From Candidatus Parcubacteria bacterium (GTDB lineage Bacteria; Patescibacteriota; Patescibacteriia; Patescibacteriales; UBA12075): DNA of 52,959 nucleotides. The notes beneath the pieces are model-generated. The model made no database searches and was not told where the DNA came from. It worked only from the letters and a program-made list of their open reading frames with translations. The translations under genes were made by a program, and so were the position numbers. Numbering within the stretch: the stretch's first letter is position 1; each line of letters opens with the position of its first letter. Below, one piece after another: positions 3,810 to 45,838 of this stretch. The stretch covers positions 1 to 52,959 of the forward strand of contig JAGLYP010000014.1 of NCBI GenBank assembly GCA_023132155.1. The letters run 5' to 3'.

Positions 3810-4825
3810 TATTTTGTCAAATTTTATTTTTTGTGTATTTAATGGTATAATAAATTATATTAACATTCCAAACCAACTAATCGGCCAAATAATAAACGAC
3901 CGTTTAGGCATAGTCGGATCCACTTTCGCGCTAGGCTACGGCGGATAAATTTTTGGCGCTGGTTATGCTTGCCCCGCGTAGCTGAAAGCGTAGTGGGGTT
4001 TATTTATGGCGGATTTACATGGATGATGGCGGCCGGCTCTAATTACAAGCGCAAAAAGGCAAAGACATATTAATTTGGGCAACGCTTGGGCTGGTGGTGA
4101 TATTTTTCGCTTATGCTATGGTTAAATTTATTATTGAGGAGATTTGCGGGGACGATGTAAGTACGCGATGGAATTTTGGAATGGAGAATGTTTTGGTCGG
4201 GCGGGTGTTGGGATTTGAGATGTTTATTTATAAAATTTTGTTGCGCAAGTTCGCTAACATAATAATATTGACAGAATAAAATATTTATTGTAAGGTCAAT
4301 AAAATCTGATCTTTAAAAAATATTTTTTATGAAGCAATATTTAAAAAAATAATAAGAATGAAAACAATTAAAGAAAATATGGAGGAAAAAACAATGAAAT
4401 CTAAAGTTGAAATTTTAACAGGTATTCGCCCGACAGGAGATCTTACTGTTGCTAATTATTTAGGCGCGGTTAAACCTATCTTGCAAATGCAGAAGGACGG
4501 AAAAAGACCAATGTTATTTGTGGCTGACTTGCATGCCATGACAACAAATGAACCAATGGAAATCGCCAAATACAGCCGTGAAGTAATAGCCGATTATTTA
4601 GCGCTTGGTGTGGACACGGACAAAACCACAATTTATCTTCAGTCTGACATTGCCGGACAAACTACCACGCTAATGACTTTTTTAGCTCGTCATATAAGCG
4701 TGGCAGAATTATTAAGAGTGCCGACATTAAAAGAGAAGATGAAAACCGATAGTGAGGAAAAGTTAAAAACCGCTAACGCGCTGCTTTTCTTGTATCCGGT
4801 TATGATGGCGGCGGATATTCTTCTT
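3810..4825 (+). repeat. left copy of the pilin-trpS segmental duplication
   Basis: From about 3810 to 4825 the sequence is closely similar to about 10120-11118. The shared stretch covers an extended -10 promoter, a decayed pilin gene, the trpS leader and the first part of trpS. The leader before trpS is almost base-for-base the same in both copies. The right copy breaks off inside trpS after ATGATGGCGGCGGA. Confidence 0.85.
3866..4270 (+). pseudogene. broken copy of the VirB2-like pilin gene
   Basis: The DNA matches the intact gene at 76-489 from about codon 44 onward (CCAAACCAACTAATCGGCCA and further), but the signal-peptide part is missing. Extra pieces interrupt the frame. One lies at about 3920-3950 (contains GGCTACGGCGGA) and another at 3969-3998, a palindrome-like insert CCCCGCGTAGCTGAAAGCG and onward. 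There is also a lost base run around GCAAAAAGGC. Open stretches remain (for example 4094-4279), but they do not make the original protein. An extended -10 (TGGTATAAT at 3843-3851) is still present upstream. Confidence 0.8.
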
Positions 4826-5383
4826 CAACAAGCAAAAAGCATACCTGTCGGCGAGGATCAGGTTGCTCATTTAGAGGTAACACGCAAGCTTGCCAATCGT
4901 TTTAACAAAAAATATGGAGACACTTTTCCTGTTCCTCAATTAATGCAAGTAAAAGCGTTACGCTTGCTTTCGCTTAAAGGCGATGGCAAAATGAGCAAAT
5001 CAAATCCGTCTGGAGCTATTTTTTTAACAGACTCTGCTAAAGTTGCGGCTCAAAAAATTAAAAAAGCTGAAACTGCCATTGAAGGCAAAATGACACCAAG
5101 ACTGGAAAGTCATGTAGTATTGGCTAAAAAACTTTGCAAAACCGAAAACGAACTTAAACAAATTGATGAACTTATAAACCAACACAAAAACGGCAAACCG
5201 GTAATGGGCCTGTTTAAACAGCTTATGGCTCAAATTGTTACGGATTTTTTACAGGATTTTCAAAGTAAACGAGCTAAAATCAAAAATGAACACATAAATT
5301 CCGTACTGGCTGCCGGCGCAAAAATTGCCCAAAAAAATGCTGATGAGACATTAAATCTTGTCAAAAAAACATTATTTAATTAA
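4394..5383 (+). CDS. trpS: tryptophan-tRNA ligase
   Basis: This 329-residue class I aminoacyl-tRNA synthetase charges tRNA-Trp. It opens with GIRPTGDLTVANYLGA; TVAN stands in the HIGH position, as in other bacterial TrpRS with a T-x-x-N form. It continues with PVGEDQVAHLEVTRKLANRFN, a typical tryptophan-enzyme segment. GKMSKSNPSGAIFLTD near residue 205 is the KMSKS loop. The length fits the family. The frame is open from 4358, but GGAGG seven bases before the ATG at 4394 fixes the start there. The decayed second copy at 10701 shows the same start. A strong terminator follows. It sits at the left edge of an island whose cargo includes a TrpRS relative. Confidence 0.93.
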   Translation: MKSKVEILTGIRPTGDLTVANYLGAVKPILQMQKDGKRPMLFVADLHAMTTNEPMEIAKYSREVIADYLALGVDTDKTTIYLQSDIAGQTTTLMTFLARHISVAELLRVPTLKEKMKTDSEEKLKTANALLFLYPVMMAADILLQQAKSIPVGEDQVAHLEVTRKLANRFNKKYGDTFPVPQLMQVKALRLLSLKGDGKMSKSNPSGAIFLTDSAKVAAQKIKKAETAIEGKMTPRLESHVVLAKKLCKTENELKQIDELINQHKNGKPVMGLFKQLMAQIVTDFLQDFQSKRAKIKNEHINSVLAAGAKIAQKNADETLNLVKKTLFN

Positions 5384-5388
5384 TTGAA

Positions 5389-5421
5389 AAGCCGAGGATG
5401 GTAATCATCCTCGGCTTGTTT
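5389..5421 (+). terminator. trpS terminator
   Basis: A perfect stem with arms AAGCCGAGGATG and CATCCTCGGCTT, a GTAAT loop and then TGTTTATTT, lies five bases after the trpS stop. Confidence 0.85.
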
Positions 5422-5437
5422 ATTTAAAGTTAAATGT

Positions 5438-6397
5438 GTGAATAAATTAAAAATTCCAAGCGAATTAAAAAAATTTACTCCATTTTTTCATGATATTGAT
5501 TTAGGGAATGGATATATTACTAATCCTGAAACTTATAGAATGAGAAATTGTATTGATCTCTTTTTTCCTCCATTGTTAAAATTATCTGGTGGCAATCTCA
5601 GAGGATTAAAAATTTTAGATGTTGGGTGTAACTGTGGCGGATTTTCTTTTGCCGCCGCTAAATATGGTGCAAAAGAAGTTATCGGAATAGACTCAGACCA
5701 AAAAAATATAAACCAAGCAAATGCAATTAGTAGATACTTAAAAATTTCTAATGTTACATTTAAAAAATTAACTGTAGAAAATTTAAATAAAAAATTTTTT
5801 GGTAAATTTGATATTTGTATCCTTGCTGGAATTTTATACCATCTGGAAAATCCAATGAACATAATGAAAATCATTTCAAAAATTACAAAATCAACAATTA
5901 TGGTTGACTGTCATGTTCATTATTCTTCTAACACGACAGAAGAAGACACTCCATCTTGGTGGATGCTTTCTGATACAGATCAAAAAAATTTAGAGGGTCT
6001 TTTTGAGAATAATCAAATATTATCATCAAAACAATATTTAAAATTTGAGAATGAAACAAAAATAGATTATAGCGGATTACCTAATCAATTTAATCCTTCC
6101 CCGCACACAAGTAGAGATTTAAAGTTTATACAAAAATGCATGCCGCACCCCACTCATGAAATGACATCAAGATATAATATTGGTTCAGCTGATCCTGGGA
6201 GTTTAGTTTTTATTCCTAATAAAAAAGCGATTTACAAGCTTGTTAGATATTTTGGATTTGAAGATATTTTGGAAGTAATTCCACATAGATTTTCAGAAAT
6301 TCCTTATTTAATGCGTTATCGCATAGGCTTTTTTGCTATTAGACGAGAAAAAAAAGGACCCTTTTCTGTTTCTATATTACAAAACTATCACAAATAG
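5438..6397 (+). CDS. CmoB-like SAM-dependent methyltransferase
   Basis: The 319-residue protein starts with GTG only 17 bases after the trpS terminator. It carries a Rossmann methyltransferase core: motif I ILDVGCNCGGF (about 61-71), an acidic end of strand 2 at VIGIDSD, and FDICILAGILYHLENP (about 126-141). The FHDIDLGNGYIT start and the ILYHLENP segment resemble the CmoB/DUF1698 group, which modifies tRNA wobble uridine using carboxy-SAM; related enzymes methylate small molecules. No CmoA partner is seen. The gene is convergent with and abuts the three-gene minus-strand cargo operon. It is more AT-rich than trpS, as are the other cargo genes, which fits transfer. The true substrate is unknown. 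Confidence 0.75.
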   Translation: MNKLKIPSELKKFTPFFHDIDLGNGYITNPETYRMRNCIDLFFPPLLKLSGGNLRGLKILDVGCNCGGFSFAAAKYGAKEVIGIDSDQKNINQANAISRYLKISNVTFKKLTVENLNKKFFGKFDICILAGILYHLENPMNIMKIISKITKSTIMVDCHVHYSSNTTEEDTPSWWMLSDTDQKNLEGLFENNQILSSKQYLKFENETKIDYSGLPNQFNPSPHTSRDLKFIQKCMPHPTHEMTSRYNIGSADPGSLVFIPNKKAIYKLVRYFGFEDILEVIPHRFSEIPYLMRYRIGFFAIRREKKGPFSVSILQNYHK

Positions 6398-7534
6398 TTA
6401 ATGAACGGATTTTTGAATAATTTGAATAAGTTCTTTTTGGCTTTTTTCTCTAAGAATATATATTATGGGTCTATTTTTGTCAACAACGATTAGAGTCGCT
6501 TCTTTTTTTAAAACAATATAATTATTTTTTAAAGAAAGATTTTTGATTTCTTCAACAGATTTAAAAATTTTTTTTTGTTGATTAGCTTCCATTAAACTGC
6601 GTTTCGCGAAATTAGCCAATCTTCTTGAGGCCTGATTTCTAGATTTTAAAATTGGTATTATTAACGCATAAATTTTTAAAAAATATTTTTCAAGCCAACA
6701 TGGAATTATAGGTCTTGGAATAACTTGTAATTTTTTTGGTAAAAGATTTCTTACCATTTCCCCAAAAATTAACTCCCCATTTGTAATATTTACCTCAATT
6801 GGTAATTTATTAATTTTTATGCTTGATGGAACTAAAAATTCTTCCAAAATATAATAAATGATATCTGCTAAATCATCCACATCTATAATACTTATCTTAA
6901 AACCGTAAAACCATCTATGGCATATTCTCATTTTTTTCCAAAGACTCCATGCGGCTTGAGTCATTTTCTGTTCACCCTTTCCCTTAACATAAGCTGCTAT
7001 AAATTGATAATCACATAGCCCGCTTTCTTCTAATTTTTGCCTTGCTATTTTTTTTGTTTTTTCGTATGGTGGCAATTTTTTTTCAAATCGTTTCTCAACA
7101 GTTGAGCCCATGTTACAAAATATAAAAAAATTATTTTGAGCTTTTAATTTTTTAACGACTGTTAGCATACCGTCCAAAGTTCCTAAATTAGATTTTAATA
7201 TCTCTTTTGCTGATCCAGAAGTATTAGCTACAAGATTTATCATCCTTGAAATTTCATATAAAGAAATTCCAATTTTTTTAAATGTTTCTTGCCAACTCTG
7301 GACATCTTTCCATTTTGGATTGCTAAAATCAGCTTTTGTAATAAATAACAATTGGCTATTGCTAATATATTTATTAAATTTAGAAATGTCAAAATTGTGT
7401 GAAATAAGTTTATTGCGAATTTTCGTAATATTGGGAAGGCGCGTACTAATAATTACTTTCCATCCTTCATGAAGATATTTTTCTGTTAGTGCTCTGCCAA
7501 TAAAACCACCTCCGCCTAAAATCAAAACTGTCAT
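6398..7534 (-). CDS. NAD(P)-dependent epimerase/dehydratase-like protein (SDR)
   Basis: The frame is open from 7573, but the ATG at 7534 lies four bases after the stop of the upstream gene and gives the usual family start MTVLILGGGGFIGRAL, so I choose it (378 residues). GGGGFIG is the nucleotide-binding loop. PYEKTK near residue 145 fits the YxxxK catalytic pair of extended short-chain dehydrogenases. Later parts (IIDVDDLADIIYYIL) fit the NmrA/epimerase group. There is a hydrophobic stretch near the C-terminus. It is the last gene of the cargo operon with the TrpRS-like and TrpD-like genes. Substrate unknown; a sugar-phosphate or ribosylated intermediate is a reasonable guess. Confidence 0.7.
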   Translation of the reverse strand: MTVLILGGGGFIGRALTEKYLHEGWKVIISTRLPNITKIRNKLISHNFDISKFNKYISNSQLLFITKADFSNPKWKDVQSWQETFKKIGISLYEISRMINLVANTSGSAKEILKSNLGTLDGMLTVVKKLKAQNNFFIFCNMGSTVEKRFEKKLPPYEKTKKIARQKLEESGLCDYQFIAAYVKGKGEQKMTQAAWSLWKKMRICHRWFYGFKISIIDVDDLADIIYYILEEFLVPSSIKINKLPIEVNITNGELIFGEMVRNLLPKKLQVIPRPIIPCWLEKYFLKIYALIIPILKSRNQASRRLANFAKRSLMEANQQKKIFKSVEEIKNLSLKNNYIVLKKEATLIVVDKNRPIIYILREKSQKELIQIIQKSVH

Positions 7535-7538
7535 TTTG

Positions 7539-8681
7539 CTATTTGGTATTTTGTTTAAATAATGTTTTGACATGAAATTTATATTTATTATTAGCGGTAG
7601 ATTCCCATATTTTTTTGATTTTTATAAAATATTTTAGGTATTCTTTTTTAAAATCAACCCATTCTTTCTCTTTGTCATCATATGCCTGAGTCGCTTTTTT
7701 TATTTTTTCAAAATTCCAATCAGATACTAATGTTATCATTTGAAGGATTATTTTTTCATCTTCAGAATTGCAATTTAAAATTTTATTTTTCAATTCTCTG
7801 CAAGAGTCGTCCAAATTAATTGAAGAGTTTGGGATACTTTTCGACATTTTTGAAAAACCATTCAACCCCTCAATAAGATTACCAAATATTGATGAAATAT
7901 AAACATTTTTAGATATAAATTGTTTGTAGTGTTTTTTATTTAATCTCTGTATAACTAAATTTGCCATTTTAGGAAAATAATATTCTTCTATACCAACAAA
8001 AACCAACACTCTTTCTTTCTTTTTTAAAATTACAGGCAGAAGAATGTCAGCAATTGTATAGTTAACATCTATATAAGTAGGAAAATCGCTTCCCAAAATT
8101 TTCATTTTTTTATATAATTTTGCCGTAACTTCTTCGTTTTTTACAAAATCATCAATACTTAATACCTTTGAGGTTAAACTTGATGTAACCAATAATTCAA
8201 AATTATTATGTGTCCGTAACATGCCTTTGTATCCTAATTTCCGTATAAATTTTATAAATCTATTCGTTAAATACTCTATTTTTTCAAGTTTTATATTTCT
8301 TGAATTGTAAGCGCCTAAATTTGATATAATTATTGTAGAGTCAATACCCGTTTCTTTTTCGAAAAACAAAGCCCTTAAAATCATTGATAAAGTTCCGCCC
8401 GTTGGGGAATTAGTAGGTCCGAAACCAGTAACTAAGTGTTGTTTTTTTATGGGTACTTGGCTAAATTTTTCTAAATCCATATGACAACTAAATTTAGATC
8501 GTAAAAAATCTGTATCTGAAATTTTACCTATTGCTAAATTTTTCGAGATTTGACGATATTTTTCTTTCTTGATTATATTCTTAACAAATCTATTATCCAT
8601 CTTAATTTCTTTTTTAGCATGATTTATCATGCTATTATTAATATCTATTTTTATTAATTTTTTCTTTTTCATAATTTTCAC
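7539..8681 (-). CDS. TrpRS/TyrRS-like class I synthetase paralog
   Basis: The 380-residue protein has the catalytic fold of tryptophan/tyrosine-tRNA ligases. An ATP site GFGPTNSPTGGTLS (about 86-99) stands where HIGH should be; TGGT replaces HIGH. A central DILLPVILKKK...FVGIEEYYFP segment aligns with the tRNA ligase stretch that ends PVGxDQ. An intact KMSKSIPNSSINLDD (about 280) is followed by a short helical tail. The sequence is far from the true trpS 3 kb away. Its GTG start overlaps the stop of the TrpD-like gene (GTGA), so the two are co-translated; ATG at 8672 is an alternative start. It may activate an amino acid or aromatic acid for the cargo pathway rather than for translation. Confidence 0.75.
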   Translation of the reverse strand: MKIMKKKKLIKIDINNSMINHAKKEIKMDNRFVKNIIKKEKYRQISKNLAIGKISDTDFLRSKFSCHMDLEKFSQVPIKKQHLVTGFGPTNSPTGGTLSMILRALFFEKETGIDSTIIISNLGAYNSRNIKLEKIEYLTNRFIKFIRKLGYKGMLRTHNNFELLVTSSLTSKVLSIDDFVKNEEVTAKLYKKMKILGSDFPTYIDVNYTIADILLPVILKKKERVLVFVGIEEYYFPKMANLVIQRLNKKHYKQFISKNVYISSIFGNLIEGLNGFSKMSKSIPNSSINLDDSCRELKNKILNCNSEDEKIILQMITLVSDWNFEKIKKATQAYDDKEKEWVDFKKEYLKYFIKIKKIWESTANNKYKFHVKTLFKQNTK

Positions 8682-10045
8682 ATTAAACTTTGTAATTTTT
8701 TAATATCTCCACCTGATAAAACTATTAATTTCTCTAACACCTTAATGCCATTTCCAGATTTTATCATTTTAAGTGCTATTGAAGCGCCAATTTTTAAATT
8801 CTTCACAACGCCAATACCATAAAGATTCATAGCTGTTTCCATTGCTATTAATGATTCTAAAGTAGAATTATTTTTTCCTAATAATAATTTAACAAATTCC
8901 TGAGCATTTTTCTTTTGTGTATTTTTGGTTTGTACATTTTTTATATTTCCGCATTCAAATCCTAAGTTTTTAGGAGTTATTTTATAATATGATATTTTCC
9001 CATTAATGGATTCTGCAATGTTCGTATTATCCATTATAGAAATTTGATCTATTATTTGATTATTATTCTTATTTTGTCCTGTTGTTATTATAATATTTTT
9101 ATCTGGGTATATTTTTTTTAATATTCCCAAGCACACTTTATTTGATCCTCTTGTTAGCCCATAATTAATCAAGTCTACGTCAACGGGACATACAACTGCT
9201 GCACCTCCAATAAGTCCTGCAAAAACCTGAACATTATAAATTCGATTATCATAAATATGATTAAGTCTTGGAACAGTATTATTAATGTTGAATATTCCCA
9301 ATTTTGTTTTCACGGCTATTTTCGCCATTTCATTATTAGAGATATTAAGATTGACACCGAGAAATGAAAATATATCGGATGAACCCGTAACACTGGATAC
9401 TCCTCGTGATGCTGTTTTTGCTACAACAATATTTTGATTGGTTTCAATTCCGATCGTGGCTAAGATGACAGCTACCATGGAACTAATATTTAACAGCTTA
9501 AATTCTTTTCTTTTTTTACCACTTCCGCAAGGATTTATAATTTTTGCGTTTTTTGCATTAATTTTTATTTTATTTGATATATAATTAAATTTATCAAATT
9601 CAAAAGCCGCCTTTGTTATTGCTAAACCATATTTAATCGCTAAATTTAAATTATCGGGATTATTCATAAATGTCCAAAGACTTGCTAAAAAGCTACCTAT
9701 TAGAACATCTCTTAATTCTGTTTGTGTGTCAGGTATAACCAGTATGGTTGCGTATATTTTTTTTATTTCTTGCGGAGTAAAATAAGCACAATTTAATATT
9801 TTAATGCATTGTTTAAATATATTATTTTGTATTAAATTTGAGTAAGCTTTAATTTTCGGTAATTTTTTGAATTTATAATAATAATATAACAAAATATATC
9901 CCTTATAAATATCGAGATTAAAATTTTGATTTGAATTAATCAATTTTAAAGCTTTTAGCATTGTGTTTTTATCAACATCAATATTATCTGTTAATTTTTC
10001 AGTTAGCTGAATGATATATTCTATTATTTTTTCCTTCTTATTCAT
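8678..10045 (-). CDS. TrpD-like phosphoribosyltransferase
   Basis: The 455-residue protein has the anthranilate phosphoribosyltransferase layout. An N-terminal helical part is followed by NPCGSGKKRKEFKLLNISS (about 170-190) in place of GTGGDxxxTFNIST, then KTASRGVSSVTGSSDIF in place of KHGNRxxSSxxGSAD. NVQVFAGLIGG matches the N-V-x-G-P-L-x-N-P segment, and the end (SLIAMETAMNLYGIG) matches the family tail. The Mg-binding Asp-Glu pair of TrpD is not visible; TTGQNKNN stands there. About 100 extra residues lie at the front. No other trp biosynthesis gene is near. It is the first gene of the cargo operon. The acceptor substrate is unknown. Confidence 0.75.
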   Translation of the reverse strand: MNKKEKIIEYIIQLTEKLTDNIDVDKNTMLKALKLINSNQNFNLDIYKGYILLYYYYKFKKLPKIKAYSNLIQNNIFKQCIKILNCAYFTPQEIKKIYATILVIPDTQTELRDVLIGSFLASLWTFMNNPDNLNLAIKYGLAITKAAFEFDKFNYISNKIKINAKNAKIINPCGSGKKRKEFKLLNISSMVAVILATIGIETNQNIVVAKTASRGVSSVTGSSDIFSFLGVNLNISNNEMAKIAVKTKLGIFNINNTVPRLNHIYDNRIYNVQVFAGLIGGAAVVCPVDVDLINYGLTRGSNKVCLGILKKIYPDKNIIITTGQNKNNNQIIDQISIMDNTNIAESINGKISYYKITPKNLGFECGNIKNVQTKNTQKKNAQEFVKLLLGKNNSTLESLIAMETAMNLYGIGVVKNLKIGASIALKMIKSGNGIKVLEKLIVLSGGDIKKLQSLM

Positions 10046-10189
10046 AAATATGCAAATTCTACCAATGGCAAAATTTTTACGATATTAAAAATTATTTAAA
10101 GCATATCACAAATTTTGTAATATTGCCAAAAAATTGAAATGTCAAATTTTAATTTTTATATATTTAATGATATAATAAAATTACACTAT

Positions 10190-10490
10190 ATAAAAGAACC
10201 AACTAATCGGTCAAATAATAAAACGGCAGTTTAGGCATAGTCGGATTTTTGGCGCTGGTTATGCTTGCCCCGCGTAGCTGAAAGCGTAGTGGGGTTTATT
10301 TATGGCGGATTTACATGGATGCTTGCCGCCGGCTCTAGTGAAAAAGTGCAGAAAGGCAAAGACATATTAATCTGGGCAACGCTTGGGCTTGTGGTGATAT
10401 TTTCCGCCTACGCGCGAGGCTGCGGCGAGACATGTCCGCTTATGCTGTTGTTAGATTTGTGATTGCGGGGATTGCGGGAACGGCGTAAAT
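10190..10490 (+). pseudogene. second broken copy of the VirB2-like pilin gene
   Basis: The match to the intact gene starts at AACCAACTAATCGGTCAAAT, so the signal-peptide part is lost as in the first broken copy. The same palindrome-like insert CCCCGCGTAGCTGAAAGCG... lies at 10268-10294. A second insert around 10413-10440 (GAGGCTGCGGCGAGACATGT) is absent from the other copies. The central part still reads FIYGGFTWMLAAGSSEKVQK in one frame. An extended -10 (TGATATAAT) remains upstream near 10168-10176. Confidence 0.8.
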
Positions 10491-10700
10491 TTTAAAGATA
10501 GAGATGTTTTGGGTGGATGTTGTGATTTTGAGGATGTTTACAAAATTTTATTGTATTAGTTTACTGATATAATATTGACAGAATAAAAATATTTATTGTA
10601 AGGTCAATAAAGCCTGATCTTTAAAAAATATTTTTTATGAAGCAATATCTAAAAAAATAATAAGAATGAAAACAATTAAAGAAAATATGGAGGAAAAACA

Positions 10701-11118
10701 ATGAAATCTAAGGTTGAAATCTTAATAGGCATTCGTCCGACAGGGAATCTTACCGTTGCTAATTATTTAGGGGCAGTCAAGCCTATTTTGCAAATGCAAA
10801 AAGACGAAAAAAATCCCATGTTATTTGTAGCTGATTTACATACCATGACAACAAACGAGCCCATGGAAATCGCCAAATACAGCCGTGAAGTAATAGCTGA
10901 CTATTTAGCGCTGGGGTTGACACGGCTAAAACTACAGTTTATCTTCAATCTGACATTGCCGGACAAACTACCACATTAATGACTTTTTTATCACGCCACA
11001 TCAGTGTAGCGGACTTATTAAGAGTGCCGACATTAAAAGAGAAGATGAAAACCGATAGTGAGAAAAAGTTAAAAACCGCTAACGCGCTGCTTTTCTTGTA
11101 TCCGGTTATGATGGCGGC
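10701..11118 (+). pseudogene. trpS: truncated, frameshifted trpS copy
   Basis: This copy keeps the ribosome site and the first ~140 codons of trpS (MKSKVEILIGIRPTGNLTVA). A single base is missing near 10912 (GCGCTGGGGTTGACACGG against GCGCTTGGTGTGGACACGG in the intact gene), which shifts the frame. The match ends at 11118, well before KMSKS. The product cannot be an active enzyme. It is best read as the former chromosomal gene left to decay after integration of the island brought a complete trpS. Confidence 0.88.
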
Positions 11119-11178
11119 GGAAAATATTGTCAATATCCTTATATATAAGCTTACTAAGATTAAACACAATTTAGTCTA

Positions 11179-11207
11179 TTGACATTTTTTTAAAATTAAC
11201 ATATTAT
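11179..11207 (+). promoter_or_regulatory. promoter of the T-box transcript
   Basis: TTGACA, a 17-base spacer and TATTAT form a near-consensus promoter. The predicted start is about 11214, just before the T-box leader. Confidence 0.7.
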
Positions 11208-11213
11208 ATAAAT

Positions 11214-11537
11214 ATCTTTAACAATTATAAAATCCTTGATTAGGATCCCTTAAACTTAAAGTAGTTTTGAGGGGCTGGGTCTTAGTCGCCTAAAATATTT
11301 AGGCAGGATGATTGCTGCGTTAGTGGCAATCCGGTTTCCTCCGTAACCATAGGATAACTGATATCTCCGCCAAATGGCGGACAAGAGTCAGTAAAAGTGG
11401 TTTTGAAATCCGTTTTACTGACGGATTTTTTTAATTCGTCAAGAAATTTCAAGACAATAAAGGTGGCACCGCGGGAGTAAACTTCTCGTCCTTTTATCCA
11501 AGTATTATGTTTGGATAAAAAGATAAGAAGTTTTTTT
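11214..11537 (+). promoter_or_regulatory. T-box leader (tRNA-sensing riboswitch) with terminator
   Basis: AAGGTGGCACCGCGGG at 11460-11475 is the signature T-box sequence that pairs with the end of uncharged tRNA, and the expected CGTCC follows shortly after. A 22-base stem (11480-11532, arms starting AACTTCT and ending AGAAGTT, two mismatches) with a T-run is the terminator. The CGTCC lies inside its left arm, so the antiterminator and terminator exclude each other as in known T-boxes. Upstream hairpins include GATTGC/GCAATC, CCGCC/GGCGG and GTCAGTAAAA/TTTTACTGAC. I could not assign the specifier codon by eye. No synthetase gene follows; the next gene is a 65-residue zinc-ribbon protein 178 bases on. 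Confidence 0.85.
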
Positions 11538-11714
11538 ATTGGCAAAAAATAATAAAAATCTTTGACAAATTATGCCCAAAGGGCGCTAATAATAGTCGAA
11601 AATATTCAAATTCCTTGACTAAAAATTATTTCTTAACAAAAAAAGAGATATAAAATATTGACTAAAAAAATAAAAATAAAAAAACGAAAATAAAAAACAA
11701 GGAGAAAGAAACTT

Positions 11715-11912
11715 ATGAAAGGATTAAAAAAAACAAAAATGAAACTTATCAATATAAAAAAAACAAAAAATAAAATTTGCCCATACTGCGGCGGGGAAAT
11801 AACAATTAAAAGAGGTCCTGGCTTTTCTTCAAAAGAAGAAAAAAAATGCAAAACAAGCGGCTGTGAATTCAACAAATTTTCATGGGGAAGTTCAAGCGGA
11901 TGGGGCAATTGA
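11715..11912 (+). CDS. small zinc-ribbon-like protein
   Basis: The 65-residue protein has a basic N-terminal half and a zinc-ribbon-like pattern: CPYCGGE at residues 22-28, then Cys at about 46 and 51 (KCKTSGC). It ends in a Gly/Ser/Trp-rich tail. AAGGAGAAAG lies before the ATG. It is the first gene after the T-box leader and is followed by a strong terminator, so it is either the gene the T-box controls or a separately transcribed neighbour. Function unknown; binding of nucleic acid would be typical for such ribbons. Confidence 0.6.
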   Translation: MKGLKKTKMKLINIKKTKNKICPYCGGEITIKRGPGFSSKEEKKCKTSGCEFNKFSWGSSSGWGN

Positions 11913-11957
11913 AGTAAAAGCGCAAAATGGACTGGCGCCAAATAACACCAAATAAAA

Positions 11958-11992
11958 AAGGGCAAAAACTTAACATACAAGTTTTTGCCCTT
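11958..11992. terminator. bidirectional terminator
   Basis: Fourteen-base arms AAGGGCAAAAACTT and AAGTTTTTGCCCTT with a short loop. It ends the zinc-ribbon gene from the left and the cohesin-dockerin pair from the right. Confidence 0.8.
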
Positions 11993-12038
11993 GTTAAAAG
12001 GTTCAATAATTTTAGATTTAGATTATTTTTTGCTGTTG

Positions 12039-12617
12039 TTAATCCACAAAAATCTGGATAGCACCGGTATCGCTCAACAAAATATTAGAAACTGTTAAGC
12101 TGCCCTCGCCTCTTTCAAGAGCAACAAAAGTAACTGTCGCCAATACGAAATTATCCGGCTGAGTGTCGTTGGTTTCCTCTGTTCGCACAAAAGAAACGGC
12201 GTCAATATACAATGAACCGGGATTATCGTTTTGATGGGTATCTACCTCCTGTAAATTTAAATATCCCAAATGCGAGCTGTAATCTATTGAAACAAACTCA
12301 ATCATGGCAGGATCATAATCAAGATTCAAAGAAAATGCTCCTAAAGACGGGGCTGTTTCATTGCCCAAACCGCGGATGCTTAGCTCTACGCTAAAGTATT
12401 CTCCCTTTGCAATCCCTTCATCGGGAATATTAATGCCAAAGGAAATTCCCGTTTCAGCTTCGGTTTCCGCTTCCGTTTCCGTCTCCGCAGAAATAGAGGT
12501 TTCGTTTTTGTCTTCGTCGCATCCACTTTCACTTCCGCCTCCGTCTCCGCCGCAGCCGATTAAAGAAAAAACCAAAAAAACGGCTATTGCCGAAACATTG
12601 ATTATGTTTTTCATCAT
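12039..12617 (-). CDS. cohesin-like lipoprotein
   Basis: The 192-residue protein has a lipoprotein signal ending at FSLIGCG (Cys22), a low-complexity linker of Glu, Thr and Ala repeats (about 40-58) and one beta-rich domain. That domain (about 59-192) resembles a cohesin: an early INIPDEG...GEYFSVELSIRG strand pair, GAFSLNLDYDPAMIEFVSID in the middle and VLATVTFVALERGEGSLTV near the end. Cohesins bind dockerins, and the gene just upstream, overlapping by four bases, ends in a dockerin. The product would sit on the outer face of the membrane and could hold that partner. GGGAGGTGA precedes the start. Confidence 0.75.
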   Translation of the reverse strand: MMKNIINVSAIAVFLVFSLIGCGGDGGGSESGCDEDKNETSISAETETEAETEAETGISFGINIPDEGIAKGEYFSVELSIRGLGNETAPSLGAFSLNLDYDPAMIEFVSIDYSSHLGYLNLQEVDTHQNDNPGSLYIDAVSFVRTEETNDTQPDNFVLATVTFVALERGEGSLTVSNILLSDTGAIQIFVD

Positions 12618-14446
12618 TCACCTCCCTGATAGGAATTTATCAAATTAACCTCTGTCCTTAAATCAAGGACATTGAGATAACCATCGCCGTTTAAATCGTA
12701 CTTTGGGTCAAACGAACCCGAAATCAGATGAATTAAATGTGCCTCTCTGATTATCTGATAGTCGTTCCGGTCAAGATAACCGTCGCAATCAAAATCGCCG
12801 AGCGGATCAATCGGACAAATCAGGTCTTCACCGTCGCAGTCTTGGTTTATGCCGTCGCCGCAAATTTCCGGAGCGCCGGGGTAGATGGTGTCGTCACAGT
12901 CATTGCAATCGCCTTGGTTTTCAGTAAAACCGTCATTATCGTCGTCAATATCTGATGGGTCAAGCGGACAAATCAGGTCTTCACCGTCGCAGTCTTGGTC
13001 AATGCCGTCGCCGCAAATTTCCGGAGCGCCGGGGTAGATGGTGTTGTCGCTGTCGTTGCAGTCTCCTTGGTTTTCCGTAAAACCGTCGCCGTCATTATCA
13101 ATATCCAATGGATCAGGCGGAGGCGGAGCGGTATAAACCACCCTCATAGCTTGTTTATCGCCAAACCTGCCGCCGGCAATCGCGCCGGTTGGAGTCCATA
13201 TAATAGCTCCCAAAGAATTATTCCAAGTTTCTCCGGGATTAACCTGAAGATCCTTTATAATAATGCCTTCATTTGCCAAACTGCCATCATCCGCATGTAT
13301 CATAATAAGCATTGAATAGATGCGCCTATATTCACCATTAGAAGAACCGGCCGCACCGCAAATATAAATGATTCCTTCAGGATTTATACTTACGCGCCTC
13401 GGATTAAATTCAAAATTCATAACACCATCGCCAACATAAACGGTTTCTCCCAAATCCATACTGTTACACATTGAAACTAATGTGGTAGAGCTGGTGTACC
13501 GAATACTCTTAACTTCTTCGAAATCTTGATTAAGCCTTAAATAATATAAGGCACTTTCATCAACTCCATCTGTGTTAGCTATAATAATAATATCATCCTG
13601 ATATAAAACAATATCTCCCAGAGAATCGTCGTAAAGATTAATATTATTATAATTCGCCAAAGGCGGACATAGATGCTCTCCGTTTCCGTCAATTTTCGCA
13701 ATGAACAGATTATACTCCTGGTCACTTCTGGCTACAAAACAAACAATAATTTCATTGTCAGAAATTTTAGCGGTTCTAATATTTGACATTGACCCGATAT
13801 ACCCGCCGGACTGGGCGCTTATATCAAGCTCTTTCATTTCCGGCCAGCCTTCCGCGATTGTGTCATCGGCATTAAAGCGGCTCATATAAAACTTTTTACA
13901 ATCCGAGCTGAATATCATATAGGAACCATCGGAAAAGGTAATCATTGAATATGGCTGATACATTTTCTCACTATCCGCAGGCCACCTTGGTCTGGCTTCA
14001 TGCAGAAACGTTAACTCCGCATCCATATAAAATGTCCAAAGTTGAGTGGTGCCCAAGCCTAACCGTCTTGAGGCAAAACAACGAAATCCCGTTATCTTTT
14101 CCTCGGCTTCATCATATAACGGTTCAATTCCACCAAAAGGACCAGCTAATCCACGAACTTGTCCGTCCACTTCAGGGGCTCTGTTTATTTCAATTCCCTC
14201 AAGATTAAGTCGGCGGAAATAAAAACGACCACTACCGCCATCAGTACCGATACACTCTAAGGTGCCAATAAGGTTATCACTGCCTTTTGGCTCAAAAAGT
14301 TTTATAATCGCCTTTATTTCCTGTCCAAATACTGATTCCACCGCAATATCCCCTTGAGACATTGCAAAACAATTTGAATGAAGCGTAAAAACAATAAAAA
14401 TGGCCATTGTTACAATAAAACTTATGCTTCTAATTACTCTAATCAT
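12614..14446 (-). CDS. secreted propeller-like protein with MopE-type repeats and dockerin
   Basis: The 610-residue protein has a signal peptide (1-28). About 400 residues follow with repeated beta segments and aromatic blades, probably a beta-propeller. Two nearly identical Asp/Cys-rich repeats come next (about 450-545: NQGDCND, TIYPGAPEICGDGI, QDCDGEDLICP), matching the metal-binding motif of MopE-like proteins. The C-terminus is a dockerin: two Ca-loop helices, DFDCDGYLDRNDYQII and DLNGDGYLNVLDLRTEV. The last base of its stop is shared with the start of the cohesin-like lipoprotein gene. GGAGG precedes the ATG. A partner pair displayed outside the cell is likely; the ligand is unknown. Confidence 0.75.
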   Translation of the reverse strand: MIRVIRSISFIVTMAIFIVFTLHSNCFAMSQGDIAVESVFGQEIKAIIKLFEPKGSDNLIGTLECIGTDGGSGRFYFRRLNLEGIEINRAPEVDGQVRGLAGPFGGIEPLYDEAEEKITGFRCFASRRLGLGTTQLWTFYMDAELTFLHEARPRWPADSEKMYQPYSMITFSDGSYMIFSSDCKKFYMSRFNADDTIAEGWPEMKELDISAQSGGYIGSMSNIRTAKISDNEIIVCFVARSDQEYNLFIAKIDGNGEHLCPPLANYNNINLYDDSLGDIVLYQDDIIIIANTDGVDESALYYLRLNQDFEEVKSIRYTSSTTLVSMCNSMDLGETVYVGDGVMNFEFNPRRVSINPEGIIYICGAAGSSNGEYRRIYSMLIMIHADDGSLANEGIIIKDLQVNPGETWNNSLGAIIWTPTGAIAGGRFGDKQAMRVVYTAPPPPDPLDIDNDGDGFTENQGDCNDSDNTIYPGAPEICGDGIDQDCDGEDLICPLDPSDIDDDNDGFTENQGDCNDCDDTIYPGAPEICGDGINQDCDGEDLICPIDPLGDFDCDGYLDRNDYQIIREAHLIHLISGSFDPKYDLNGDGYLNVLDLRTEVNLINSYQGGE

Positions 14447-43113: not shown

Positions 43114-44229
43114 TTAGCTTATTTTCTTTAAAATCGCGAGTCCTTTTTCCAATACCTCGTCTGAAACCGCGAAAGAAAGGCGAAAATAGCCGCTTTTTTC
43201 AGAAAAAACCTCGCTGGGAACAGTTAAAAGCTTATTTTTAAGCATTTCTTCTCCAAAATCCGGATAATTTTCCGGATATTTTATATACGCGTAAAACGCG
43301 CCTTCCGGCTTTTGCAAAGTATATTTATCTTTTAAATTTTCATACAAATAATTTCTTTTTTCCTGATATTTTTTTACATGCAAGGAAATATCCGCATCAA
43401 ACTGTTTAACCAGCGCTGCCTGCGCCATGGATGGCGCGCATACAAATGTATATTGCTGTAATTTGTTCATAGCTTTAATAATTTTTCCCGGGCCATGCGC
43501 GTAGCCGACGCGCCAGCCGGTTATGCTTAAGCTCTTGGAAAATCCGTTCAAAGTTACTGTCTTATCATAAAATCGGCCAACACTGAAAAATTTATTTTCA
43601 TAATCAAACTTTTCATAAATCTCATCGGAGATTATCAATAAATCATGCTTGCGCGCGGCATCAGCCAAACTTTTCAACTCTTCCTTGCTATAAACAATTC
43701 CTGTTGGATTATTCGGTGTATTAATTATAATTGCTTTGGTTTTTGAAGAAATCAACTTTTTTATTTTTTCACAATGCAGGCGGAAATCAGGATAAGTATC
43801 TAAAAAAATAATCTTTACTCCCAAAAAATTTAAAATTCGCTTATACAAAACAAAATACGGATCAGGTAAAATTACTTCGTCGTGTTTATTAAAAATACTG
43901 GAAAATAACAAAAATATCGCGCCAGACACGCCGCTGGTAATTATTATATCTTCCACGCTTGAATTAATATTATTTTGCTTGATTAATTTTTCAGAAACCG
44001 CCTCTCTTAACTCTTGCAAGCCACAAGTGCTTATATAAGCATTGGCATTATCATCAATCGCGTCTTTTGCCGCTTGTTTAAGTTTTTGGGGAACAGAAAA
44101 ATGCGGCTGGCCGATTGATAAATTTATATACTCGCGCTTATTCTTCGCGGCTAGCGCAAAAACTTTTCTAATTCCGGATTCTTCAATTCTATTTATTCTA
44201 TTTGATAAAATATCTTCTATTTTTGCCAT
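43114..44229 (-). CDS. pyridoxal-phosphate aminotransferase (class I/II)
   Basis: The 371-residue enzyme has LSIGQPHFSVPQKL at the front, INTPNNPTGIVYS, SDEIYEKFDY with the cofactor-binding Asp, and NGFSKSLSITGWRVGY with the Schiff-base Lys (about 232). It resembles aspartate/aromatic aminotransferases. Its start overlaps the tyrA stop by 13 bases, so it likely makes Tyr/Phe from the keto acids formed by its neighbours. Confidence 0.88.
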   Translation of the reverse strand: MAKIEDILSNRINRIEESGIRKVFALAAKNKREYINLSIGQPHFSVPQKLKQAAKDAIDDNANAYISTCGLQELREAVSEKLIKQNNINSSVEDIIITSGVSGAIFLLFSSIFNKHDEVILPDPYFVLYKRILNFLGVKIIFLDTYPDFRLHCEKIKKLISSKTKAIIINTPNNPTGIVYSKEELKSLADAARKHDLLIISDEIYEKFDYENKFFSVGRFYDKTVTLNGFSKSLSITGWRVGYAHGPGKIIKAMNKLQQYTFVCAPSMAQAALVKQFDADISLHVKKYQEKRNYLYENLKDKYTLQKPEGAFYAYIKYPENYPDFGEEMLKNKLLTVPSEVFSEKSGYFRLSFAVSDEVLEKGLAILKKIS

Positions 44230-45245
44230 TTGTACGCTTCGCTAAAAATTATTTTATATAATTTTTTAATAAACTCTTTATCCAGCTTTGTTTGCTTTAC
44301 TTTTTTATTAATAATTTCCCGCTCTCTTTTTCTGTCTACAATTTTTAAGCCCTGCTTTTTCTTAAATTTACCGATTAAGCGAGCATGCTGAAATCTTTTT
44401 TGCAGTAATAAAAAAATCCGCTTATCAATTTTATCAATCATTTTTCGATTAAAATCAAACTCATTTTCAGAACACGCTTCAACAATTTTCTCTTGCAGCG
44501 CGCGCCCTGATTCCATGTATTTATCCATTAACTTTTCGGCAAATGGATTATAATTATGCATATCATAAAATAGCCGCCAATCATCCGAAGTCGTGTGCGG
44601 CAAAATTTTTAACAAACCCGCGTAACCGGGAGTATATATTTTTTGCTCGTTGATTTTGGAAGCCGACAAAGAGCGGCCGATAAAATGAACAAGGCTCAAG
44701 GTTTTGGCGTTTTGCCGATCATGTTCTTCCGCGCTTGTTATAATCACTTTTAAGCCAAGATTTTTCAAATATTTTTTTATCAATCCCAATTTTTCACCGC
44801 TAATTCTTAAAGGACACAAAACTATTTGCTTATCATCCAGCTTATAATTTTTTCTATTGATGTCAAATTTTGCCGTAGTCGGCCCGAACATCGGATGCGT
44901 ACCCATTATCTCAATATTTTTAGGCGCGTATCTTTTAAGCCACCTGCATGGATAAATTTTAACCGAACAAGTATCAATTAATAAAGCATTATGTTTAATT
45001 TTTTTGGAAATATCTTTAATAATTTTTTCGGTCTGGGAAATTGGCGCTGTTAAAATTATAATATCGGAATTTAAAACGGTTTTTATGCCAGCCAATTTTA
45101 CTCCGATTTTTTTAGCGTCAAGAAAATATTTTTTTTGCTTACTATTATGAAAAACTCTTACGTCAAAATCCCCGCTCAATACGCAAGCGGCTAATTTTCC
45201 AAAATTCCCAAAACCGATAAGCCCGATTTTAAAATCTTTATTCAT
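44217..45245 (-). CDS. tyrA: prephenate dehydrogenase with C-terminal chorismate mutase
   Basis: The 342-residue protein joins an N-terminal prephenate dehydrogenase (KIGLIGFGNFGKLAACVL at about 6-23, LIDTCSVK, MGTHPMFGP near 115 with the catalytic His) to a C-terminal AroQ-type chorismate mutase (about 255-342: MIDKIDKRIFLLLQKRF, IGKFKK, VDRKRE). In E. coli TyrA the mutase comes first; here the order is reversed. It makes prephenate and then hydroxyphenylpyruvate. Confidence 0.85.
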   Translation of the reverse strand: MNKDFKIGLIGFGNFGKLAACVLSGDFDVRVFHNSKQKKYFLDAKKIGVKLAGIKTVLNSDIIILTAPISQTEKIIKDISKKIKHNALLIDTCSVKIYPCRWLKRYAPKNIEIMGTHPMFGPTTAKFDINRKNYKLDDKQIVLCPLRISGEKLGLIKKYLKNLGLKVIITSAEEHDRQNAKTLSLVHFIGRSLSASKINEQKIYTPGYAGLLKILPHTTSDDWRLFYDMHNYNPFAEKLMDKYMESGRALQEKIVEACSENEFDFNRKMIDKIDKRIFLLLQKRFQHARLIGKFKKKQGLKIVDRKREREIINKKVKQTKLDKEFIKKLYKIIFSEAYKWQK

Positions 45246-45262
45246 TCTTTATTTTTTAATTA

Positions 45263-45838
45263 TTATTTCCTCTTTACCGCCGCGATAAAAGTTGTAAAAT
45301 TAAATTTTAAATCCTGGATGCTTTCTTCAAAAAGCTCCAAGCCGTATAATTCCACGCAGACGCGCGGGGCGATTACCGCTGCTGTTTTGGGCAAATTGCC
45401 ATTGCTTAATGCTTTAGCCGCGCTGGCGGTGTCTGAATATTCTTCTAAATCCGTATCTCCCCATTTGCGCTTTAAATACATGCGGCACTGTTTTAAGGCT
45501 TGGGGATGGGAAACAATTTTTGTAATCTCGCTTGCTTTTATTCCTTTCAGCGCGAGCAAATTCATTTTGATGTCAATTTCAAAAATATTTTCAATTTCAA
45601 AATTGTGCTCGCTCATAGAATAAACCGACTCATAAACAATTCCGCCATTGGAATTTTCAATTGGAAAAACGCCTTTATCTGTTTCTCCCTTATTTAAAGC
45701 AACAAGCGTATTATTGACACTGCACAAATAAACCAGCTCATAGTCCTTAATGCCGTTTTTATGGCAATAATAATCAGCTGCTTCCTCGGAAAAACTGCCC
45801 TTATTGCCGGCTGCTCCGATTTTAATTTTTTTTGGCAT
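45263..45838 (-). CDS. pheA: prephenate dehydratase
   Basis: The 191-residue protein has the prephenate dehydratase domain: AAGNKGSFSEEAA at the front, GVFPIENSNGGIV (substrate loop), SHPQALKQC and NFTTFIAAVKRK at the end. No ACT regulatory domain follows, so it should lack Phe feedback; control may act on transcription instead. First gene of the pheA-tyrA-aminotransferase operon. Confidence 0.87.
   Translation of the reverse strand: MPKKIKIGAAGNKGSFSEEAADYYCHKNGIKDYELVYLCSVNNTLVALNKGETDKGVFPIENSNGGIVYESVYSMSEHNFEIENIFEIDIKMNLLALKGIKASEITKIVSHPQALKQCRMYLKRKWGDTDLEEYSDTASAAKALSNGNLPKTAAVIAPRVCVELYGLELFEESIQDLKFNFTTFIAAVKRK

Follow-up and report, generated by a model that had tools for sequence, protein, structure and literature searches.

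The window analysed here, a 52,959-nt stretch of a Candidatus Parcubacteria bacterium contig, carries a second tryptophanyl-tRNA synthetase gene, trpS2, convergent with three close-set same-strand genes for a TrpD-like protein, a TrpRS-like protein and a short-chain dehydrogenase/reductase (SDR). A methyltransferase gene lies between trpS2 and the SDR gene. All four open reading frames (ORFs) between positions 5438 and 10045 were confirmed in the window sequence. The trpS2, SDR and TrpD-like genes are linked in two orders of Patescibacteria. We propose, with a probability of roughly 40%, that the window holds a laterally transferred, tryptophan-linked accessory cassette, which would serve specialised metabolism or encode a regulated transferase and which includes an auxiliary TrpRS. 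The features of the locus are as follows.

3815 to 4117, forward strand: pilin-like remnant upstream of trpS2, flank copy 1
4358 to 5383, forward strand: trpS2, a second tryptophanyl-tRNA synthetase gene, foreign by its place in the tree
About 5385 to 5425, forward strand: hairpin terminator of trpS2
5438 to 6397, forward strand: S-adenosylmethionine (SAM) methyltransferase (Pfam PF13847), a convergent neighbour of the SDR gene
6398 to 7573, reverse strand: extended SDR/epimerase-like protein, 391 aa, with GGGGFIG, YEKTK and a C-terminal domain of its own
7539 to 8681, reverse strand: class Ic aminoacyl-tRNA synthetase (aaRS) paralogue of the TrpRS/TyrRS family, 380 aa (TrpRS-like protein)
8678 to 10045, reverse strand: protein of the TrpD family (glycosyltransferase family 3), 455 aa, motifs GSGKK, KTASR, VQVFAGLIGG and DQ (TrpD-like protein)
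10140 to 10450, forward strand: pilin-like remnant, flank copy 2
10586 to 11128, forward strand: truncated, frameshifted trpS2 copy, 85-97% identical to the copy at 4358-5383
11242 to 11496, forward strand: T-box leader, tentatively Trp-specific, with a terminator and a 65-aa ORF after it

The tight same-strand arrangement of the TrpD-like, TrpRS-like and SDR genes, described in an earlier sequence-only reading, was borne out. The four-base overlap given there for the first two genes holds only with the GTG at 8681 as the TrpRS-like start; an in-frame ATG three codons later would leave a small gap. The SDR has an alternative start at Met14, immediately past the TrpRS-like stop. The cassette has a GC content of 27.1%, compared with 30.4-39.8% in all other equal-length stretches of the window. 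Direct repeats of a pilin-trpS2 unit bracket the operon, the second unit being truncated and frameshifted. T4SS-pilin-like (PF18895) segments around the cassette lie at 76-489, 3815-4117 and 10140-10450; one is intact and two are degraded. PADLOC gave weak generic matches only, and a reading of the locus as a defence system was dropped.

The trpS2 protein scores above the TrpRS family cut-off, with 256.2 bits against 176.75. A housekeeping trpS, 35% identical to it, lies on another contig (G000:C30) and groups with the trpS of its own genus in the tree. The nearest relative of trpS2 is instead the second trpS of Parcubacteria group bacterium Athens0714_12 (G566; 62% identity), a genome of the same class but a different order, which also keeps a separate housekeeping trpS. 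The two trpS2 genes are sisters (support 99/98), nested in one clade (100/100) with family f54 of the same phylum, and share 33-38% identity with either genome's housekeeping trpS. Because trpS2 groups with the Athens0714_12 copy and f54, apart from the housekeeping gene, it is, on this tree, foreign to the window genome. The suggestion of an additional trpS beside the gene set is supported by the separate housekeeping gene and by the linkage of an extra copy to a broken gene set in Athens0714_12.

That broken set, in L048, retains the gene order and orientation of the window: trpS2 converges on the SDR gene, which is followed, across a deletion, by the TrpD-like gene on the same strand. A class-wide search placed the TrpD-like homologue at 54% identity over residues 3-346, and the SDR fragment matches the C-terminal part of the window SDR at 57% identity. 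The junction fuses TrpD-like residue ~344 to SDR residue ~213, from which we read that one deletion took the end of the TrpD-like gene, the content at the TrpRS-like position and the start of the SDR gene. Flanking the cassette are direct repeats (240 bp, 88%) of the 3' end of a histidine-kinase gene, and an integrase remnant is present. At both loci the repeats could plausibly stem from incoming DNA that recombined with homologous local sequence, and trpS2 and the remodelled-enzyme set probably moved together. To the left of this cassette (L048 4-2923, reverse strand) are kinase-like, NUDIX, phosphoribosyltransferase-like and methyltransferase genes. L048 also carries an ORF for a Cys-rich 83-aa peptide beside the gene of a radical SAM protein whose tail is SPASM-like (10988-11239 and 11214-11999, reverse strand), possibly a ribosomally synthesized and post-translationally modified peptide (RiPP) locus.

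A second divergent trpS adjoining enzyme genes may suggest self-immunity, in which the three genes would make a small inhibitor of TrpRS or a nearby step and trpS2 would be the resistant copy, in the style of an indolmycin cluster. Self-defence usually takes the form of an auxiliary aaRS copy with about 30% identity to its housekeeping counterpart (PMC9437257; PMC7916415). At the position of B. stearothermophilus Gln9, trpS2 has Arg (GIRPT), while the housekeeping copy has Gln (GVQPS). Lys9 reportedly underlies the indolmycin resistance of S. coelicolor TrpRS1, in work by Kitabatake from 2002. However, Arg at this position is also found in the trpS of f54 genomes that have no cassette, and Lys in some relatives. 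In addition, trpS2 retains His43, a residue implicated in indolmycin sensitivity (PMC4899734), and neither indolmycin-type enzymes nor an exporter were recognised. We consider this explanation unlikely.

The TrpD-like protein falls in PF00591 (Glycos_transf_3; E 3e-20, above the Pfam gathering score). Its best NCBIfam match is TrpD (TIGR01245), at 92.3 bits against a cut-off of 199.05, and it thus misses the family threshold. TrpD carries a loop for phosphoribosyl pyrophosphate (PRPP) and binds Mg at a DE pair. In an alignment against 16 ordinary TrpDs, the PRPP loop GTGGD is replaced by GSGKK in the proteins of the window, Athens0714_12 and two further genomes, G982 and G934. DQ replaces the Mg-binding DE pair in the first three, where the anthranilate-binding Arg of the R-T-x-F-N stretch aligns, at the level of sequence, with Gln (VQVFAGL). 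K-T/I-A/V-S-R stands where the ordinary TrpDs have KHGNR. GSGKK, DQ and Gln are invariant across the three main homologues (window, Athens0714_12 and G982). Since residues of the PRPP loop and the DE pair are altered, the binding of anthranilate and the Mg-dependent binding of PRPP have probably changed, and anthranilate is unlikely to be the substrate. The KTxSR stretch resembles AMP phosphorylase, which has KTSSR in L046, more than it does TrpD, and the protein may catalyse a phosphorylase-like or other ribosyl-transfer reaction. The L046 protein itself, a match from the class search, is an AMP phosphorylase and was rejected as a TrpD-like relative.

The G982 homologue is full length and 47% identical to the window protein. 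It carries the same altered motifs, and these are therefore conserved rather than products of decay. Downstream of it lie genes for an aldo/keto reductase and then an NTP_transf_5 nucleotidyltransferase-like protein, while in G934 the genes after a shorter GSGKK relative encode HAD and NUDIX proteins. These neighbours are arranged as tailoring enzymes would be, which we count in favour of an accessory cassette. In G101, a frameshifted remnant (L012 1510-1797) runs up to the 3' end of a tRNA-Pro gene; integration typically occurs at such sites. The TrpD-like protein is rare: none of the 110 further genomes of the order has it, and its clade is absent from 32 genomes of f54; apart from these homologues, it was not found in about 380 phylum and 380 class genomes. 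Most phylum matches had 21-29% identity, and the ones opened were ordinary TrpD genes or trp fusions. Among GTDB contigs, the single TrpD-like sequence gave no matches, and the TrpD-like alignment matched Athens0714_12 plus two ordinary TrpDs. The set had no relatives in viral contigs, plasmids or phages besides weak Listeria phage-record matches to the TrpD-like protein.

The truncations in Athens0714_12 and G101, together with the second trpS2 copy of the window, a pseudogene, would fit an imported set that has no present function and is decaying by deletion. Against this stand the three open frames of 380-455 codons kept at 25-28% GC in the window, and the full-length G982 homologue, with 47% identity and conserved motifs. 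We regard a relic as very unlikely.

The TrpRS-like protein falls in PF00579 (tRNA-synt_1b; E 1e-9, above the gathering score) yet under every TrpRS/TyrRS cut-off. Among its NCBIfam scores, archaeal-type TrpRS is best, with 51.1 against 451; another is 38 bits against 176.75. As both it and the TrpD-like protein score under the family cut-offs, they are relatives rather than members. The KMSKS loop is intact (KMSKSIPNSSINLDDS, aligned with TrpRS and TyrRS), while HIGH is not recognisable and TGGT occupies the aligned place. Alignment to TyrRS and TrpRS also shows that the Tyr/Trp pocket residues, whose roles we take to be those of M. jannaschii TyrRS, are not retained. The protein contains three Trp residues. 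One match to it that was opened proved to be an ordinary trpS.

An aaRS paralogue that has no HIGH and adjoins or overlaps a phosphoribosyltransferase relative recalls HisZ, which lacks adenylation activity and regulates the phosphoribosyltransferase HisG (PMC9437257). The TrpRS-like protein might by analogy be a non-catalytic, metabolite-sensing subunit controlling the TrpD-family transferase. Its intact KMSKS loop argues otherwise, as does the G982 transferase, which has no TrpRS-like partner. Because the pocket residues are not kept, the known mode of Trp sensing would not apply to the protein. Such a pairing seems quite improbable to us.

The SDR matches PF01370 (Epimerase) with 28.7 bits against a cut-off of 20.9, and is probably an active oxidoreductase because GGGGFIG and YEKTK are present. 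The methyltransferase matches PF13847 (E 5e-17) and is akin to TIGR04290/CmoB, under both cut-offs, with the CmoB score far below. Modification of a tRNA or nucleotide, which the sequence-only reading also raised, is still conceivable. Pfam thus supports the TrpD-, TrpRS- and SDR-like identities first read from the sequence, each above its gathering score, and names the fourth protein as a SAM methyltransferase. The methyltransferase is not present at the Athens0714_12 trpS2 locus, and for this reason we dropped it from the core set; it probably lies outside the transferred set. It has the operon's low GC and may have arrived with the operon in the window lineage.

The sequence-only reading had envisaged a four-gene anthranilate/PRPP pathway. 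It is not supported, on several counts: the methyltransferase is missing from the Athens0714_12 locus, the G982 TrpD-like gene occurs without SDR or TrpRS-like genes, and the signature residues for PRPP/Mg and anthranilate are lost. When the TrpD-like/TrpRS-like pair was sought in other genomes of the Candidate Phyla Radiation (CPR), the TrpRS-like protein was found in the window genome only. The four genes occur together in no other genome searched, which strictly taken refutes that reading by its own test; the order of trpS2, SDR and TrpD-like genes is kept in one. The sequence of steps proposed, in which an aromatic acid would be activated, ribose phosphate added and the product reduced and methylated, is unproven. 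As had been stated, no Trp biosynthesis genes were recognised in the window. The TrpD-like search, which finds ordinary TrpDs elsewhere, gave no second or ordinary TrpD in the window genome or order; TrpE, TrpC and TrpAB were not searched genome-wide. A Phe/Tyr branch is encoded in this CPR genome at 43114-45838 (reverse strand); it comprises a class I/II aminotransferase, prephenate dehydratase, and a prephenate dehydrogenase that includes a chorismate mutase domain. The sequence-only reading had noted neither this branch nor the foreign origin of trpS2, the flanking repeats or the low GC of the cassette.

A further link to tryptophan comes from the T-box at 11242-11496 (E 1e-8), whose 50 bits are under the gathering score of 93 and whose antiterminator and terminator look complete. 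The predicted fold places GCUGG in the stem I bulge, and the antiterminator bulge UGGC would complement a discriminator G73. In the window genome the discriminator is G73 for tRNA-Trp and A73 for the tRNA-Leu genes found, so that UGG (Trp) is a better candidate for the specifier than CUG (Leu). We tentatively assign this T-box to tRNA-Trp on these predicted pairings. It lies 1.2 kb from the cassette and precedes a 65-aa zinc-ribbon-like ORF (11715-11912) with two Trp residues near its end. Because it heads this ORF and not the cassette, the tryptophan link is suggestive only. This setting is reminiscent of anti-TRAP in B. subtilis and its Trp T-box, with no sequence evidence of kinship. A T-box before glyS in G982 (L109 3942-4087, forward strand) follows the same pairing rule, with a UGGA bulge that would fit a tRNA with U73, for instance tRNA-Gly; the T-boxes of Patescibacteria are possibly little described. 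Beyond the 65-aa ORF, at 12039-14446 (reverse strand), a cohesin-domain lipoprotein-like protein is encoded beside a 610-aa protein that has MopE metal-binding motifs and matches dockerin weakly.

The T-box fitting tRNA-Trp, and a trpS2 protein with zero Trp residues, as throughout the trpS2/f54 clade of the tree, would suit a Trp-starvation island in which duplicated Trp-charging functions respond to Trp supply. The model is the CPR TrpRS-A/ORF1 loci, which pair an unusual TrpRS with a bacterial-type TrpRS devoid of Trp (PMC5370408). However, the one tRNA-Trp found, on another contig, has G73 rather than A73; none was found in the window or linked to the cassette, and some tRNAs were possibly missed. 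The three Trp residues of the TrpRS-like protein, and a T-box that is ahead of neither trpS2 nor the operon, also count against an island of this kind, which we judge distinctly unlikely.

Under the accessory-cassette reading, the TrpD-like protein would move a ribosyl or phosphoribosyl group onto a non-anthranilate acceptor, possibly by a Lys-based, Mg-poor, phosphorylase-like route. The TrpRS-like protein would be its nucleotide-binding partner or provide an acid-activating step, and the SDR would supply a redox step. The role of trpS2 would be to maintain tRNA-Trp charging when the product or Trp shortage blocks the housekeeping TrpRS. The methyltransferase is treated as a neighbour rather than a proven step. 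Several observations weigh against this reading. No close TrpRS-like relative was found beyond the window genome in the searches made, among them those of G982 and of viral, plasmid and phage sequences, and a TrpRS-like gene in the deleted Athens0714_12 piece is something we infer from the gap. The G982 assembly (456 kb, about 86% complete) has no SDR, TrpRS-like or matching trpS gene and no linked trpS2; its own trpS is therefore missing or distant. The AlphaFold models are too poor for use, with pLDDT of 48 for the TrpD-like and 39.5 for the TrpRS-like protein, and the sole region of fair confidence is an extra helical N-terminal domain of ~85 aa in the former.

These results document a clade derived from TrpD in which an altered active site is conserved, and the linkage of a second trpS to that gene in two Patescibacteria orders. 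CPR bacteria are mostly without biosynthesis. If the locus does encode the making of a TrpRS inhibitor, or a new pairing of aaRS paralogue and transferase, it would offer a rare and testable case of specialised metabolism or enzyme regulation in this group, and the linked trpS2 offers a ready assay for the immunity idea. It is a doubtful but conceivable extension that a mobile CPR set, in which a remodelled TrpD and a likewise remodelled class Ic tRNA synthetase work jointly, makes a small molecule from a new substrate under the protection of trpS2, as a natural-product or nucleoside pathway of an ultra-small epibiont, possibly directed at its host.

Compared with known systems, the TrpD-like protein shares with TrpD (TIGR01245, PF00591) the fold family by sequence, matches to solved TrpD structures and the framework motifs K, SR, SS and GS.D, but differs in its N-terminal domain, its score far under the cut-off, its GSGKK, DQ and Gln residues and its setting outside a trp operon. 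The TrpRS-like protein resembles class Ic aaRS in its PF00579 score and in KMSKS followed by PNSSINLDDS, as in archaeal/eukaryotic TrpRS, whereas it lacks HIGH, has replaced pocket residues, carries an N-terminal extension of ~80 aa and scores below the cut-offs. HisZ is a class II HisRS paralogue and the HisG fold is unrelated; the likeness to HisZ-HisG is one of gene adjacency, an aaRS paralogue being encoded beside a phosphoribosyltransferase relative. Clusters of the indolmycin type, with an auxiliary resistant TrpRS, have enzymes that were not recognised here; the likeness, drawn from genes alone, is a second divergent trpS linked to enzyme genes. The locus differs from the TrpRS-A/ORF1 operons in that no tRNA-Trp with A73 was found, the TrpRS-like protein contains Trp, and the published operons are not described as having TrpD-like and SDR genes; like it, these operons place extra Trp synthetase relatives in CPR beside a bacterial-type TrpRS without Trp. 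The combination of genes in the cassette was not found in the literature searched, which was covered in part. Its components are of already known kinds: auxiliary trpS copies, aaRS paralogues beside transferases (PMC9437257) and odd CPR Trp-synthetase operons (PMC5370408).

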